From a virus, in IMG/VR virus record IMGVR_UViG_3300010392_000600, positions 1-20,037 of that record: DNA of 20,037 nucleotides; one strand, 5' to 3'. The position numbers were made by a program, and so were the translations under genes. The first letter of the stretch is position 1, and every line of letters starts with the position of its first letter. Of this stretch, positions 4,256 through 15,404 are shown one piece after another. The notes under the pieces are model-generated. The model was not told where the DNA came from, made no database searches, and saw only the letters and a program-made list of their open reading frames with translations.

Positions 4256-6767
4256 TCTTTGATGTGGAAGCTGATGGTCTCTTAGACGAGGCCACTAAGA
4301 TCCACGTCCTTGCATACAAGAAAGACGGTAAGGTACATCATACTCATGACTATGATGAGATGAGAAGTATTCTTACCAAAGCCGACATCCTTATTGGACA
4401 TAATTGTATCTGTTATGATATTCCGCTATTAGAAAAGTTGTTGGGCATTAAGATTAAGGCACGTCTTATCGACACACTAGCCTTATCTTGGTATCTAAAC
4501 CACACTCGTATTCGTCATGGCCTTGAAGGATATGGTGAAGACTACGGTGTGCCTAAGCCAGAAGTCAACGACTGGCACAACTTGTCTAAAGAGGAGTATG
4601 CACACCGTTGTATAGAGGATGTTAAAATCAACTCTAAACTCTGGCAAAAACTTAAAACTAAGCTGCTCCGTATCTATGGAACGAAGGATGATGCAGATAG
4701 GCTCATCAATTACCTTACGTTTAAGATGGAGTGCGTCAGAGAACAGGAAAGAAGTGGTTGGAAATTTGATCGCGATCTCACTGTCCGTACCCTTGACACA
4801 CTATATGAAGAAAAAGAGGAGAAAATCCAAGCTCTATCTAGGGCAATGCCAAAGGTCAAGAAGTACGCAACTAAGATAAGACCTAAGAAACCATTCAAGG
4901 CTGATGGTACGTGGTCAGTTGTCGGAGCCAAGTGGTTTAACCTTCTTAGACGAGAAGGACTACCTGAAGATTACACTGGAGAAATCCAAGTGTTGTTGCG
5001 GGAGGACGAACCAAATCCAGGAAGTCACGATCAGATTAAACAATGGTTGTACTCATTAGGCTGGGTTCCAACAAGCTTCAAGTATGACAAGGATAGTAAT
5101 GGAAACGAACGACAAATCCCACAAGTAAGGGTAGAAGGTGACGACGGTAAAGAATTATGTGAGTCTGTAAAGAAACTCATTGCTAAAGAGCCAGCGATTG
5201 AGTTGCTTGAAGGTCTTAGTGTAATCAATCATCGTATCTCTATCTTTGAGGGGTTTCTTAAAAACGAGAAGGACGGACAGCTAAGGGCTACTGTAGGTGG
5301 CTTGACCAATACTCTTAGGTTTAAACATAGGATATTGGTAAATCTTCCGGGTGTACATAAACCTTGGGGAGAAGAAATCCGTGGCTCTCTTATTGCACCT
5401 GATGGGTTTGAGTTATGTGGCAGTGATATGTGTTCTCTTGAAGAGAATACTAAGAAGCATTACATGTACATCTATGACCCAGATTTTGTAAGAGAGATGT
5501 CAAAGCCCGGATTTGATGCACACCTTGACTTGGCTAAATATGCTGGTGTCGTAACACAAGAGGAGATTGATGCTTATGTAAGGGGAGAGGATTGGGCTGT
5601 ATCCAAACTCAAACCCATTCGTAAAATCTATAAGGCTGCTAACTATGCATTAACTTGGTGCATATAAAATCATGTGAACTCAGGGGACACCTAGAACAGG
5701 CAATCCTGAGCCAAGCTAGGAGAAATATTTGATAAGGATTAGAAACGGAAACCATGGGGAAGAGGGGTTTACTGCCTCTCCTAACAAATACCCCAATAAG
5801 GTTTTTAAGGATAAGTCGTGCCGACAATGTGGAGAAGTATTTTCTCCAGTTGGACCATCTCACCACTACTGCTCTGACAGTTGTAGGGACAAAGCTTCAA
5901 CCAACAACTATTACATCAAGAACTATGGTGTATCTTTAGGGGAGGTTGAAGAAATGTTCTTGGAGCAAGGTGGGAAATGTGCTATTTGCAAGCAAGAGGG
6001 GTTCAAAATGAGGGATGTCCACAAGTCCTCCCTTAATCTCGACCACTGCCATGACACTGGTTTGGTCAGAGGACTCCTTTGCCACAATTGTAACAGGGCT
6101 TTGGGGCTTCTAAAGGATGACAAAAATATCTTATCTAATGCTATTGAATACCTAGAAGGTGCAACGACTATCCCGAAAGGGAGTAGGGTCAAGTGGCCCG
6201 AAGCGCATGACACTTCTGATGAGGAGTGATGATATAGTCTGGTCTGTATGGGGACATACAGCAGCAGGAAACTGCGGGGCAAGATTAACGACCTTGCTTG
6301 AACACTACGGTATTTATGGTGTTGGTGCAGCCAAGCTGGCTAGGGAAACTGGCCTATCTAAGAGCAAAGCTAAAGCTCTCATCGAAGCCTATTGGAAACG
6401 TAATTGGGCAGTGAAGAAGCTTTGCGAAGAAACCACTATCAAACATATTGATGGTGAAATGTGGTTGTACAACCCTGTATCTCGGTTATGGTACTCTCTT
6501 CGTTCCGAGAAAGACATTTTCTCAACACTGAATCAAGGTACTGGTGTATTCTGTTTTGATAGCTGGATTAGAGCTTTCAGAAATACACGACCACAACTCA
6601 CTGGGCAATTCCACGACGAGTGTGTGCTTACAATTAAGAAAGGTAGCAGGGATAAGTGTGTAAAATTATTGAAGGAGTCTATTGAAAAGGTGAATGATTC
6701 ATTAAAGCTTAATGTCAAATTGGATGTGGATATTCAGTTCGGTGCCACTTATGCCGATGTACACTAA
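4252..6767 (+). CDS. DNA polymerase I-family replicative polymerase, split by a group I intron
   Basis: Coding is in two parts: exon 1 at 4252-5650 and exon 2 at 6310-6767, which join to 618 residues. Exon 1 holds the 3'-5' proofreading domain (MIFDVEADGL with D4 and E6; GHNCICYDIPLL; YAHRCIEDV) and the start of the polymerase domain, including motif A (SDMCSLEENTKKHYM) and KPIRKIYKAANYA. Exon 2 continues motif B (YGVGAAKLARETGL) and contains motif C (QFHDECV), ending in ADVH. Joining after the U at 5650 and before the G at 6310 gives ANYACIYGVG, the same length between the motif B asparagine and tyrosine as in A-family polymerases such as E. coli Pol I. Without splicing, exon 1 reads four more codons and stops at 5667. 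The order after primase-helicase resembles T7, whose polymerase has 704 residues. The start has no SD and is coupled to the upstream micro-ORF. Confidence 0.9.
5651..6309 (+). other. Group I self-splicing intron in DNA polymerase motif B
   Basis: The splice sites and core can be read directly. P1: exon UAUGCAU (5644-5650) pairs with intron GUGCAUA (5658-5664), placing the required U.G pair at the 5' splice site with a 7-base loop. P3: GACACCTA (5686-5693, one bulged A) with TAGGGTC (6184-6190). The P/Q core at 5699-5716 reads GGCAATCCTGAGCCAAGC, the hallmark sequence also seen in plastid trnL introns. P7: GACTAT (6166-6171) with ATAGTC (6234-6239). A P7.1-like hairpin CCC-GAAA-GGG lies at 6172-6181 and P8 AAGTG/CACTT at 6191-6195/6211-6215. 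Three hairpins follow: 6244-6261, 6264-6275 with a GAAA loop, and 6279-6297. The intron ends in G6309. The hairpin between P7 and P3 suggests subgroup IA, common in phages. I see no clear P10. Confidence 0.92.
5729..6229 (+). CDS. Intron-encoded endonuclease VII-like HNH homing endonuclease
   Basis: A 166-residue protein inside the polymerase intron, predicted to cut intron-less alleles and so spread the intron. An N-terminal zinc knuckle (CRQCGEVF and a later CSDSC) precedes a recombination-endonuclease-VII fold: GGKCAICKQEG, then LDHCHDTGLVRGLLCHNC and NRALGLLKDD, with the catalytic DHCH histidines and four zinc cysteines. The start is TTG at 5729, supported by AGGAG at 5718-5722, which lies immediately 3' of the intron P/Q core. 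The last 24 or so codons cover P7, P7.1, P3 and P8 of the ribozyme, and the stop falls five bases before the second P7 strand. RNA folding and translation therefore share bases at both ends of this gene. Confidence 0.9.
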   Translation: MIRIRNGNHGEEGFTASPNKYPNKVFKDKSCRQCGEVFSPVGPSHHYCSDSCRDKASTNNYYIKNYGVSLGEVEEMFLEQGGKCAICKQEGFKMRDVHKSSLNLDHCHDTGLVRGLLCHNCNRALGLLKDDKNILSNAIEYLEGATTIPKGSRVKWPEAHDTSDEE

Positions 6768-7149
6768 TACATGTATAGTTCCGTCTGATGGCTATATAAA
6801 CACCGACGGGTATATTAGGGTACTAGATAAGCCCAGGTCTTGTGGCGGTAGACTTAAAATGCTGCATAGGATTGAGTGGGAGAAAATAAATGGCAGTATC
6901 CCAGATGACTATGAGATCAATCATAAATGTAAAAACCGGATGTGTTGTAATGTAAATCATCTGGAGATCCTTACAAAAAGTGATCACAAATCTAAAGATA
7001 ACTCTCTAAGATACAAGGAGAGGGAAGATCAGATTGTGGCATTCTATATGAAGAATGAAATCACTCAACAAGAATTAGCCGATACTTTCGGAGTAAGTCA
7101 GCCCGGCATATCTAAAATACTGAATAGGAGGATAGTAAATGTCTCTTAA
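6757..7149 (+). CDS. Free-standing HNH endonuclease with C-terminal HTH
   Basis: About 130 residues with an HNH_3-type domain (LHRIEWEKINGSIPDDYEIN, then HKCKNRMCCNVNHLEILT), catalytic histidines and a zinc-like cysteine set. A C-terminal helix-turn-helix follows (ITQQELADTFGVSQPGI, then SKILNRR), which probably binds the target DNA. The start overlaps the last 11 bases of the polymerase gene; ATG 6757 or 6751 could be used and neither has a good SD. The end overlaps the SSB start by 11 bases and contains its SD. It looks like a homing endonuclease lodged between polymerase and SSB, next to an intron-bearing gene. Whether it cuts at the intron site or elsewhere cannot be told. Confidence 0.82.
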   Translation: MYTNTCIVPSDGYINTDGYIRVLDKPRSCGGRLKMLHRIEWEKINGSIPDDYEINHKCKNRMCCNVNHLEILTKSDHKSKDNSLRYKEREDQIVAFYMKNEITQQELADTFGVSQPGISKILNRRIVNVS

Positions 7150-7882
7150 CGCAAAGAAAGCCCCAGGTGGAGGCTCTAAACGTCCCCGTCAACCAGCACT
7201 AGAAGCTGGTACATACCCTGCACGACTGGTGCAAGTTATTGGCCTTGGTACACAAAAACAACGGCCCTTTCAAGGACAAGAGAAAGACCCTCGCTTTGAA
7301 ATCTACACCACATATGAACTCTTAGATGAGTTTGTATTGGACGAAGAGGGAGAGGAGCAAGAAGATAAGCCTAGGTGGATTAGTGAGCGACTGCCTCTCC
7401 ATGCCTTGGACAGTGACCTTGCAAAGTCCACTAAGCGTTATTACGCCCTTGACCCCAAAGAAACTCATGGTGGCGATTGGGGAGAGCTTGTTGGCACGGC
7501 TTGTATGGTGACAATCACCAAGACCAAAGATAAGAAAGGTAAGACCGATGATAACGGAGAGCCTATCTATTACAATAATGTGGCAAGTGTTGCAACCATG
7601 CGGGACAAGGATGCAAAAAAAGCTGAGGGTTTGAAGAACGAACCGAAGGTTTTTGACCCCACAGAACCAGAGATGGAAGTGTTTCTCTCTCTGCCCGATT
7701 GGCTTCGTGATACCATCAAAGAGGCTCTTGACTTTGACGGAAGTCCTCTCTCTAAAGCCCTTGATGGAGTGGATGAAAAAGAGGAAGCCAAGAAACTTCG
7801 TAAGTCTGATGATAAGTCTGACAAGAAAGAGGAAGACTCTGACGATAAAGATGAAGAAGAGTCTCAGAATGATGATTGGTAA
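7139..7882 (+). CDS. Probable single-stranded DNA-binding protein (gp2.5-like role)
   Basis: A 247-residue protein with a basic N-terminus (AKKAPGGGSKRPRQP), a middle rich in beta-type segments (YPARLVQVIGLG, FEIYTTYELL, ACMVTITKTKD) and a long low-complexity tail of K, D, E and S ending in NDDW. An acidic tail closing with an aromatic residue is the docking feature of SSB proteins, including T7 gp2.5, which ends in F. It lies just after the polymerase, as expected for a replication SSB. AGGAGGAT at 7126-7133 fixes the start at 7139. It is a strong candidate by architecture and context, but I see no sequence motif that proves ssDNA binding; T7 gp2.5 itself is 232 residues. Confidence 0.75.
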   Translation: MSLNAKKAPGGGSKRPRQPALEAGTYPARLVQVIGLGTQKQRPFQGQEKDPRFEIYTTYELLDEFVLDEEGEEQEDKPRWISERLPLHALDSDLAKSTKRYYALDPKETHGGDWGELVGTACMVTITKTKDKKGKTDDNGEPIYYNNVASVATMRDKDAKKAEGLKNEPKVFDPTEPEMEVFLSLPDWLRDTIKEALDFDGSPLSKALDGVDEKEEAKKLRKSDDKSDKKEEDSDDKDEEESQNDDW

Positions 7883-7888
7883 TATCTA

Positions 7889-8005
7889 ATACCACCGGAT
7901 TGTTGGAACCGGGATGCTGGTTATGATATAGGTAATCTACTGGGCAGTGTGCCACTTGGTTTGTGGAAGCTGTCCAGTAAACAGCTTAACCCCTGATTAC
8001 CACCA
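7889..8005 (+). ncRNA. Structured RNA element with tRNA-like ends (candidate leader or small RNA)
   Basis: This 129-base gap after the SSB gene is dense in pairing. Stem A: GGTAATC (7931-7937) with GATTACC (7995-8001), followed by ACCA at 8002-8005. Stem B begins at the next base: TACTGGGCAG (7938-7947) with CTGTCCAGTA (7970-7979), ten pairs with one G.U. Stem C inside it: CCAC (7952-7955) with GTGG (7963-7966). The loop GGTT (7958-7961) can pair with AACC (7988-7991), a possible pseudoknot. Upstream, 7889-7924 forms a weaker hairpin around CCGG/CCGG. A possible promoter (TTGTTG 7900-7905, TATGAT 7922-7927) would start RNA just at stem A. The 75-base unit ends in CCA like a tRNA, but I find no T-arm or usable anticodon arm, so I do not call it a tRNA. 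Confidence 0.5.
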
Positions 8006-8011
8006 ATAGAT

Positions 8012-8344
8012 ATGGAGAAAAAATTGAAGAAAACTCTCGAACAAGAAATGAAAGTAATGAGTATCGCTCGTGTGGTGAGTGATAAGCGACTTAAGGGGTC
8101 TGGCCTATCTAAGGGTGACGAGGTAATGATTATTGCCACAAAAGATGTAGCCTTTAAGAAAGATGATCCCTATCTTAAGCGTACACTAATGGTAGTGTGT
8201 CGTATTGTGGATGATGAAGTACTCATCCCCAAAGATGGAACAGAGGACAAGGCCATTGTGGTTGATCCACGTAGTCTTGAACTAGTCTCCAAAGAGAGGC
8301 AAGATGATCTTATCAATAGATTTAATTCCAAATACAACGGATGA
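8012..8344 (+). CDS. Small conserved-type phage protein, beta-rich, function unknown
   Basis: A 110-residue protein with a charged helical N-terminus and a middle of alternating strands (GLSKGDEVMIIATKD, LKRTLMVVCRIVDDEVLI) ending at VDPRSLELVSKE, suggestive of a small SH3-like or beta-barrel fold. I recognise no catalytic motif. The ATG at 8012 has no SD. A TTG at 8024 preceded by GGAG at 8014-8017 is an alternative start, and ATG 8048 or 8057 are also in frame. The gene lies directly downstream of the structured RNA at 7889-8005, ten bases after its closing stem, so its translation may depend on that RNA. It sits among replication genes. Confidence 0.7.
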   Translation: MEKKLKKTLEQEMKVMSIARVVSDKRLKGSGLSKGDEVMIIATKDVAFKKDDPYLKRTLMVVCRIVDDEVLIPKDGTEDKAIVVDPRSLELVSKERQDDLINRFNSKYNG

Positions 8345-11489: not shown

Positions 11490-12247
11490 TGACAGCAAGA
11501 ATTCTAATTTTGGATATTGAGACAGCGCCAAATATTGCTTATGTTTGGGGGGCTTGGAAGCAAAATGTTGGACAGAAGCAGTGGCTAGAGAAAAGCCATA
11601 TTATGTCCTTCGCTTCTAAGTGGCTAGGAGAAGATGAGATCTTCTACATGGACAATAGGAGTAATAATAACAAAGGAATTGTTACTGTACTATATGAACT
11701 TCTTAACCAAGCGGATATTGTTGTGGCCCATAACGGTCAACGATTTGATCTCCCGGTTATTATTGGGCGTGGTGTTGTTCATGATCTTACTCCCCCCAGC
11801 CCTTATTTTGTCGTTGACACATTCCAAGTGGCACGACGAGAACTTAGACTGGTAAGCAATAGTCTAGCCAATCTGTGTGAGGATCTGGGTCTTCCTATGA
11901 AGCAAGACCTTAAGAAATTCCCTGGGTTTCAACTTTGGCTTGAATGTCTCAAAGGTAATGATGAGGCTTGGGACGAGATGGAGGAGTATAACAAACATGA
12001 TGTTGTATCTCTTGAAGCTTTGTACCTACGCCTACGTCCTTATGTGCGCAATCACCCTAACGTTAGTCGTGATGATACTAATGTGGCTTGCCCTAAGTGT
12101 GGGAGTGGGCGTATCCAGTATCGTGGTTACTACTACACTCGTGCTGGCCTGTGCTACCGTCGCTTTGTCTGCCTTGATTGTGGCGGATGGAATAGAGTAA
12201 GACATAGTGAAAAGGATAAAAACCCTAATGGTCGAAACGCTACCTAA
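11489..12247 (+). CDS. DEDD-type 3'-5' exonuclease with C-terminal zinc ribbon
   Basis: A 252-residue RNase H-fold exonuclease. Exo I is ILILDIETAPN (D and E for metal), Exo II is VVAHNGQRFDLPVI, and Exo III is EYNKHDVVSLEALY, pointing to a DEDDy or related active site. After residue 195 a zinc ribbon follows (CPKCGSG and CLDCGGW), which may bind DNA or a partner. The ATG at 11489 is chosen because GGAG at 11479-11482 precedes it and it overlaps the upstream stop. The last 21 residues resemble the end of the next gene's product, indicating that this 3' end has been rebuilt by a mobile element. It probably trims DNA ends in replication or repair; an RNA substrate is possible. Confidence 0.85.
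   Translation: MTARILILDIETAPNIAYVWGAWKQNVGQKQWLEKSHIMSFASKWLGEDEIFYMDNRSNNNKGIVTVLYELLNQADIVVAHNGQRFDLPVIIGRGVVHDLTPPSPYFVVDTFQVARRELRLVSNSLANLCEDLGLPMKQDLKKFPGFQLWLECLKGNDEAWDEMEEYNKHDVVSLEALYLRLRPYVRNHPNVSRDDTNVACPKCGSGRIQYRGYYYTRAGLCYRRFVCLDCGGWNRVRHSEKDKNPNGRNAT
12182..12244 (+). repeat. Upstream copy of duplicated C-terminal coding segment
   Basis: These 63 bases encode the final 21 residues of the DEDD exonuclease (beginning GGWNRVRHSEKD and ending GRNAT). They align without gaps to the last 21 residues of the next gene, 14 of them identical. At DNA level many synonymous positions differ: the GRNAT codons are ggt cga aac gct acc here, against gga aga aac gca aca downstream. Confidence 0.65.
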
Positions 12248-12722
12248 AGAATTGTTGGAATGTGTTTATTATATATCTGGTAAATTGTATTGGAGAGGAG
12301 ATCAACGCTATCCTCACTGCCGAGTAGGGTGCCACAATACCGAGGGATACAGAGTGTTTGGTTGGAAAGGTAGGCAGTACAAGGAGCATCGAGTCATCTT
12401 TTTCATTTTTAATGAGTATTTGCCAAGTCAAATTGACCACAAAAATGGTATTAAAGATGACAACAGGTTTGAAAATCTCAGGGAATGTACAGCCGAAACA
12501 AATCAATATAATCGTAGTGATATTCTAGGTTATAGAAAAAAGAATGGTAAGTATGAGGCCCGCATTTCTCATAACGGAAAACGTAAAGCATTGGGCACTT
12601 ACAGTTGCCCGACGGCTGCCCGTCTTGCATACTTGAAAGCTACTAAAGAGATGTACGGTGAATGGGGTCGTGTACGGTTTGCAGAAAAAGATAGAACACC
12701 GGAAGGAAGAAACGCAACATGA
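12228..12722 (+). CDS. HNH-AP2 homing endonuclease
   Basis: About 164 residues: an HNH_3 catalytic region (HRVIFFIFNEYLPSQIDHKN, then GIKDDNRFENLRECTAETN) followed by an AP2 DNA-binding domain (GYRKKNGKYEARISHNGKRK, then ALGTYSCPTAARLAYLKATK). This pairing is typical of selfish phage endonucleases. The ATG at 12228 lies inside the end of the exonuclease gene; AAAAGGA upstream is a distant SD, and GTG 12207 is an alternative. The extreme C-terminus (AEKDRTPEGRNAT) extends past the AP2 domain and copies the exonuclease tail. The stop overlaps the MazG ATG as ATGA, the coupling that the exonuclease itself would be expected to have. Confidence 0.87.
   Translation: MVETLPKELLECVYYISGKLYWRGDQRYPHCRVGCHNTEGYRVFGWKGRQYKEHRVIFFIFNEYLPSQIDHKNGIKDDNRFENLRECTAETNQYNRSDILGYRKKNGKYEARISHNGKRKALGTYSCPTAARLAYLKATKEMYGEWGRVRFAEKDRTPEGRNAT
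12657..12719 (+). repeat. Downstream copy of duplicated C-terminal coding segment
   Basis: Encodes the final 21 residues of the HNH-AP2 protein (GEWGRVRFAEKD through GRNAT), aligned with 12182-12244. This copy touches the MazG start and holds the purine-rich GGAAGGAAG that probably serves as its SD, so it looks like the original exonuclease 3' end. Confidence 0.65.
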
Positions 12723-13045: not shown

Positions 13046-13178
13046 CGTTCTTAGGGCGGGTATTAGACGAGAAATTTCTGCACTTGAAAAGGTACGTTTC
13101 GGTTCTACTGGGACCGAACGTATCATTCTTAACCAAATGATTTCTTCTTACAAAAGAATTTTAAAGGATATTCAATGA
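13035..13178 (+). CDS. 47-residue basic protein of unknown function
   Basis: A small gene between mazG and nrdJ, beginning MRDNVLRAGIRREISALE and ending SSYKRILKDIQ. It overlaps the mazG stop by 11 bases and the nrdJ start as ATGA (13175-13178). AAGG at about 13023 is a modest SD. It fills the otherwise open 129 bases with a continuous frame and carries the AAAGGAT that serves as the nrdJ SD, which supports it being real. The sequence is helical and basic with no known motif. Confidence 0.6.
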   Translation: MRDNVLRAGIRREISALEKVRFGSTGTERIILNQMISSYKRILKDIQ

Positions 13179-15364: not shown

Positions 15365-15404
15365 AACCCCCGCTCCGGCTTTCGCTGGGCGGGGGTTTCT
15401 TTTT
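15365..15404 (+). terminator. Strong intrinsic terminator between convergent blocks
   Basis: AACCCCCGC (15365-15373) pairs with GCGGGGGTT (15389-15397). An inner stem CCGGC/GCTGG (15375-15379/15384-15388) closes a TTTC loop. The run TTTCTTTTT follows on the plus strand. It sits between the last plus-strand gene and the 3' end of the minus-strand tailspike. Read on the minus strand it is followed by TTATTTGT, so it may stop both transcripts, the plus-strand one more efficiently. Confidence 0.93.

Follow-up and report, generated by a model that had tools for sequence, protein, structure and literature searches.

The window analysed here is a virus record of 20,037 bases whose genes match those of Zobellviridae podoviruses, the matching set comprising a primase/helicase, a sigma factor, a family A DNA polymerase, ssb (phrog_862), a small SH3-like protein, a phosphoesterase, a 5'-3' exonuclease and a ribonucleotide reductase; the source is an uncultured Zobellviridae-like podovirus of bacteria. 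The ssb product carries an acidic C-terminal tail with DDW as its last residues, and its homologues were found in Zobellviridae, the copy in phage RIO-1 being annotated as a putative ssDNA binding protein. Because the nearest ssb homologues in the collections searched were only 57-58% identical, those collections contain no near relative of this virus. Upstream of ssb, the DNA polymerase gene is split by a group I intron (~5655-6310) holding an ORF for an Endonuclease VII-type homing endonuclease (5729-6229); the Rfam Intron_gpI match (31.6 bits, E = 3.6e-6) falls under the gathering score of 50, and polymerase exon 2 lies within ORF 6159-6767. An HNH-type endonuclease gene with an HTH-like C-terminus occupies positions 6712-7149, between polymerase and ssb, and a second HNH-type endonuclease gene, which matches an HNH/AP2 protein, lies at 12207-12722.

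Directly downstream of ssb lies a spacer that measures 129 nt if the next gene starts at ATG 8012 (7883-8011) and 141 nt to the likelier start, TTG 8024 (Table 1). The first-pass annotation of this DNA had described 129 bases kept free of coding, which the ORF list bears out, and the spacer is the longest same-strand spacer in that list, provided that a 47-aa ORF at 13049-13174 counts as coding. Readthrough of the ssb stop, beyond which 36 codons are open, was discarded on finding no protein match for the extension. The spacer is flanked by a 7-bp inverted pair, ATATCTA/TAGATAT (7884-7890/8006-8012). The terminator scan found no intrinsic terminator (a GC-rich hairpin followed by a T run) in the spacer, and no sigma-70 promoter there exceeded the scan threshold; the promoter proposed earlier at 7900-7927 is weak, scoring 8/12 by hand and falling below that threshold.

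Table 1. Features of the spacer downstream of ssb and of its flanking genes, in window coordinates.
Feature	Position	Strand	Description and basis
ssb-like gene, phrog_862	7139-7882	+	PHROG match, E = 1.4e-42; stop TAA at 7880-7882
Non-coding spacer	7883-8023	+	No supported ORF; no homologue found
Possible outer stem (weak)	7900-7906/8003-8009	+	Would close a three-way junction; minimum-energy fold of 7878-8020
Small hairpin AACCGG/CTGGTT (uncertain)	7907-7922	+	6 bp, upstream of stem A; minimum-energy fold of 7878-8020
Stem A	7931-7937/7995-8001	+	7 Watson-Crick pairs; pair probability 0.93-0.98
Stem B	7938-7948/7969-7979	+	11 pairs, two G.U; first ten pairs 0.95-1.0
Stem C	7952-7955/7963-7966	+	7-nt loop; probability 1.0
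Shine-Dalgarno GGAG	8014-8017	+	Six bases before TTG 8024; read directly, start scan
Small downstream gene, predicted SH3-like fold	8024-8344	+	106 aa from TTG 8024; 110 aa from ATG 8012

The 75-nt unit at 7931-8005 folds with an energy of -30.2 kcal/mol and a z-score of -3.27, more strongly than 199 of 200 dinucleotide shuffles, and the larger region 7878-8020 has a z-score of -3.21. The three stems that had been drawn by eye are reproduced by the computed fold, in which stem B consists of the ten pairs (one G.U) originally claimed plus an extra U.G; stem B stacks on stem A, with a 15-nt bulge at 7980-7994, and all three stems remain paired with probabilities of 0.93-1.0 when folded within 200 nt of sequence. 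On these fold statistics and context probabilities, the general idea of a structured RNA stands as plausible. A 7-bp stem stacked on a 10-bp stem, with G.U pairs allowed, occurs about 2.4 times per shuffled 20 kb, or roughly 0.015 times by chance per spacer of the same size. In a z-score scan of the contig, 7931-8005 ranks 13th among 1,332 segments of 75 nt, with several coding segments above it. Thus, the fold is unusual, yet not extraordinary, and is notable for its place rather than for its strength.

The elements proposed beyond this core were less robust. In the minimum-energy fold of 7878-8020 the outer stem closes a three-way junction, but its probability in a 200-nt context is only 0.19-0.28, and this architecture was rejected; the small hairpin upstream of stem A reaches ~0.45 in the longer context. 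A GGTT/AACC pseudoknot suggested from inspection would join a 7-nt loop to a 15-nt linker through only 4 bp, and we estimate by hand a chance of ~0.17 for such a match. An alternative pairing that breaks stem B, 7967-7972/7982-7987, had been taken as the mark of a switch, and the pairing does exist; two-state behaviour, however, fails, as evidenced by an energy of -18.4 kcal/mol for the alternative vs -28.0 kcal/mol for the main fold and by an ensemble probability of 0. With the alternative ~10 kcal/mol above the main fold there are no two competing folds of similar energy, and we rejected a riboswitch or other two-state switch.

The unit is compact and closes on a 7-bp end stem followed by ACCA, which had invited comparison with a tRNA and would suit a small RNA of ~75 nt, possibly tRNA-like, that is transcribed on its own or cut from a longer transcript. 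However, neither a T-arm nor a D-arm is present, ARAGORN found no tRNA or tmRNA, Rfam returned nothing over the spacer either at the gathering score or at E up to 10, and no promoter rises above threshold. The tRNA-like end itself is at chance level: a 7-bp stem plus NCCA within a span of 66-80 nt occurs six times on the plus strand and eight times on the minus strand of the window, against a shuffle mean of 5.6. The missing arms, the empty ARAGORN and Rfam searches and the chance-level NCCA end led us to reject a tRNA mimic, and a discrete small RNA of ~75 nt is in our judgement very unlikely.

Neither Rfam, phage BLAST, IMG/VR word scans nor the ~90 ssb-bearing relatives yielded a homologue of the RNA, which is, as judged from these sequence comparisons, an orphan of its lineage. 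Phage BLAST with the spacer alone gave just 19-26-base chance-like matches. A 14-mer scan of IMG/VR, for which the word is too short, showed no extended similarity among the matches listed; the single 17-mer match was coding and was dismissed as chance, and the 20-mer scan gave no match. An exact 17-nt match to PQ867840.1 was likewise set aside, lying inside a small membrane-peptide ORF on the other strand. The 21-mer scan returned one match, to the strand opposite an HNH/AP2 endonuclease gene in locus L234, where 23 identical bases (window 7949-7971, minus strand; L234 287-309) encode SFHKPSG, as in the AP2-like part of the L234 HNH endonuclease. We estimate ~0.02 exact 21-mer matches by chance, assuming ~4e10 bases in the collection. 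Beyond these bases the similarity to L234 does not clearly continue, and Pfam gave no match for the window's antisense frame; the shared bases, possibly a relic or chance, are a weak hint that the spacer may contain remnant DNA.

These results bear on the possibility that the spacer has no function and is a lineage-specific insertion or remnant DNA that folds by accident. The failure to find a homologue anywhere searched is in keeping with that account, as are a z-score placing just 13th in the contig, a chance of ~0.015 per spacer for a similar stem arrangement and, perhaps, the 21-nt antisense match to the HNH/AP2 gene. It fits poorly with a fold that beats 199 of 200 shuffles and with the hairpins that relatives often carry at the same place; moreover, phage genomes shed useless DNA. 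We consider an accidental fold unlikely.

The spacers of relatives were collected by an ssb-alignment search that brought in 80 IMG/VR loci and two genome-collection loci, and 18 annotated phage stretches were also read. In most relatives ssb overlaps or abuts the next gene. When the 60 nt after each ssb stop were classed automatically by a simple rule, the non-coding spacers had a mean z-score of -1.78, with 5 of 7 below -2.2, compared with a mean of -0.51 for the 78 coding cases; the classifier missed L165, which has a 90-nt spacer with a z-score of -3.93. The hairpins found after ssb in L223, L218, L231, L226 and L165 share no common sequence, and the post-ssb spacers of L139 and L209 hold no hairpin. 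The comparison, a small one (n = 7) with classes assigned by a simple rule, is suggestive of non-coding post-ssb spacers often holding stable hairpins that differ from one another. CVT22 and Klyazma share a small hairpin upstream of the exonuclease gene (L231 ~1605-1621 and L228 ~1791-1806, respectively), in which compensating changes (GGCTC/GAGCC vs GCCTC/GAGGC) preserve the 5-bp stem that surrounds AAGGAA. In CW02, the post-ssb spacer has a small hairpin (L226 1714-1745) upstream of the exonuclease gene, the stem of which encloses AAAGGAGG.

The gene downstream of the spacer had been reported to lack a Shine-Dalgarno sequence, a statement that does not hold if translation starts at TTG 8024, ahead of which there is a good GGAG; in the alignment, the best homologue has nothing that matches the initial residues of the version read from ATG 8012. 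Homologues of this small gene occur at 38 loci, duplicates included, and the patterns used to scan IMG/VR for the small gene brought up no relative. The product is modelled as SH3-like (pLDDT 88.7), and its fold matches in the PDB are loose. A 71-72-nt 'leader' ahead of the small gene in eight relatives was rejected as an RNA candidate because it codes for a membrane peptide of 28-29 aa. This peptide (~MNDxGWCxxxxLLxFxxxMYxNxxVxCGS) is conserved in L147, L164, L177, L203, L013, L146, L141 and L198, and its stop codon overlaps the GTG at which the small SH3-like gene begins (e.g. L013 3873-3962); in phage GP100, L013 3888-3958 bears no annotated feature.

A rival to consider here is a cis-regulatory leader of the small gene, in which the fold, or an outer stem over the Shine-Dalgarno region, would set its translation, perhaps as an operator for the SH3-like product or for SSB by analogy with T4 gp32. 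The distance of 13 nt from the end of stem A to a Shine-Dalgarno sequence whose bases are partly unpaired in the ensemble (0.03-0.71) would suit such control, as would the predicted small SH3-like barrel, the CW02 hairpin around the Shine-Dalgarno sequence in its post-ssb spacer, and the precedent of T4 gene 32, which is controlled by a structured leader (PMC3014915). Most relatives, however, have small-gene homologues without a structured leader, in eight of them the space is taken up by the membrane-peptide ORF, and the window offers no competing fold of similar energy; with no PDB match below 1e-3, RNA binding by the product is a guess. On balance, a leader of the small gene seems to us rather unlikely.

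The spacer could also act as DNA, for example as a replication origin hairpin, as had been raised at the outset. Its position in a replication gene cluster and the inverted pair that brackets it are compatible with such a role. No origin signal was seen, however, GC skew being positive and smooth across 7-9 kb without a change; such repeats as it has in common with other parts of the contig are only chance-like, and the sole 17-nt match in a relative is the opposite-strand membrane-peptide ORF described above. We consider a DNA element highly improbable.

The explanation we prefer, and hold tentatively at somewhat less than an even chance, is that the spacer forms a structure in the mRNA between the two genes, where it protects the ssb message or serves in its processing while insulating the gene that follows. 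What lies in the spacer is probably an ordinary intergenic RNA structure, real and moderately unusual, rather than a mimic of tRNA or a novel switch. We favour this reading because in a compact operon a long same-strand spacer carries a stable fold and because the non-coding post-ssb spacers of relatives often hold unrelated hairpins; insulation is suggested by the fact that the small gene has its own Shine-Dalgarno sequence, as an insulated gene needs. Under such a mechanism, transcription of the replication operon would run through the spacer, whose RNA would form a stable hairpin with uneven bulging (A+B+C), 49 nt past the ssb stop and 13 nt before the next Shine-Dalgarno sequence. The hairpin would then either block 3'-to-5' exonucleases or provide a double-stranded, RNase III-like processing site, so that the ssb message would be either preserved or severed from those downstream. 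In addition, it would stop terminating ribosomes from running on into the next gene. Against this reading, several coding segments of the contig match or beat the fold, and only seven non-coding spacers were available for comparison, of which L139 and L209 are without a hairpin, and the RNA has no conserved sequence that would point to selection on the structure.

RNase III cuts T7 pre-mRNA and also cleaves between the coding sequences of bacterial polycistronic mRNAs, a 12-bp stem being sufficient for single-strand cleavage (PMC8708148). Set against this minimum of ~12 bp (PMC8708148), the window's RNA has the 11-bp stem B and the stacked 7-bp stem A, interrupted by the 15-nt bulge. Like the T7 sites of the R1.1 type, it is a hairpin between genes of an early phage operon, stable but imperfectly paired and bulged asymmetrically; unlike them, it belongs to another phage family, is unrelated in sequence and has a longer one-sided bulge, and we regard it as a candidate likeness only, with no claim of membership. 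The post-ssb hairpins of other Zobellviridae (L223, Vibrio phage 1.253.O; L218; L165; CVT22) are stable and occupy the same place in the operon, but they are unrelated in sequence and shape to that of the window and mostly shorter; the likeness is one of place and stability.

A structured RNA beside a phage ssb gene is also known from T4, where gp32 recognises a pseudoknot in the leader of its own mRNA and the structured leader controls the ssb gene (PMC3014915). The T4 structure, however, precedes and controls ssb, whereas that of the window follows it, and the putative pseudoknot of the window has only 4 bp and lacks the AU-rich UUAA(A) repeats. It would be a bolder proposal that the spacer encodes a new class of Zobellviridae RNA, either leader or free-standing, in which coaxial A/B stems and a loop-linker pseudoknot would bind SSB or the SH3-like product and couple the expression of both genes; we give this very little credence. 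If the intergenic mRNA structure that we prefer is the correct reading, Zobellviridae podoviruses would use post-ssb hairpins of unrelated sequence to uncouple SSB dosage from the other genes of the replication operon, which would be a modest, testable point on how a little-studied family of phages controls expression after transcription.

Two further features of the contig were recorded. A very strong GC-rich hairpin with a T run lies at 15366-15400 between convergent gene blocks and is likely a bidirectional terminator. Ahead of the replication block, positions 170-1937 hold amidoligase and ATP-grasp (R2K-like) genes, and PQ867840.1 has a longer version of this set, to which glutamyl hydrolase, cyclotransferase and aminotransferase genes are added.
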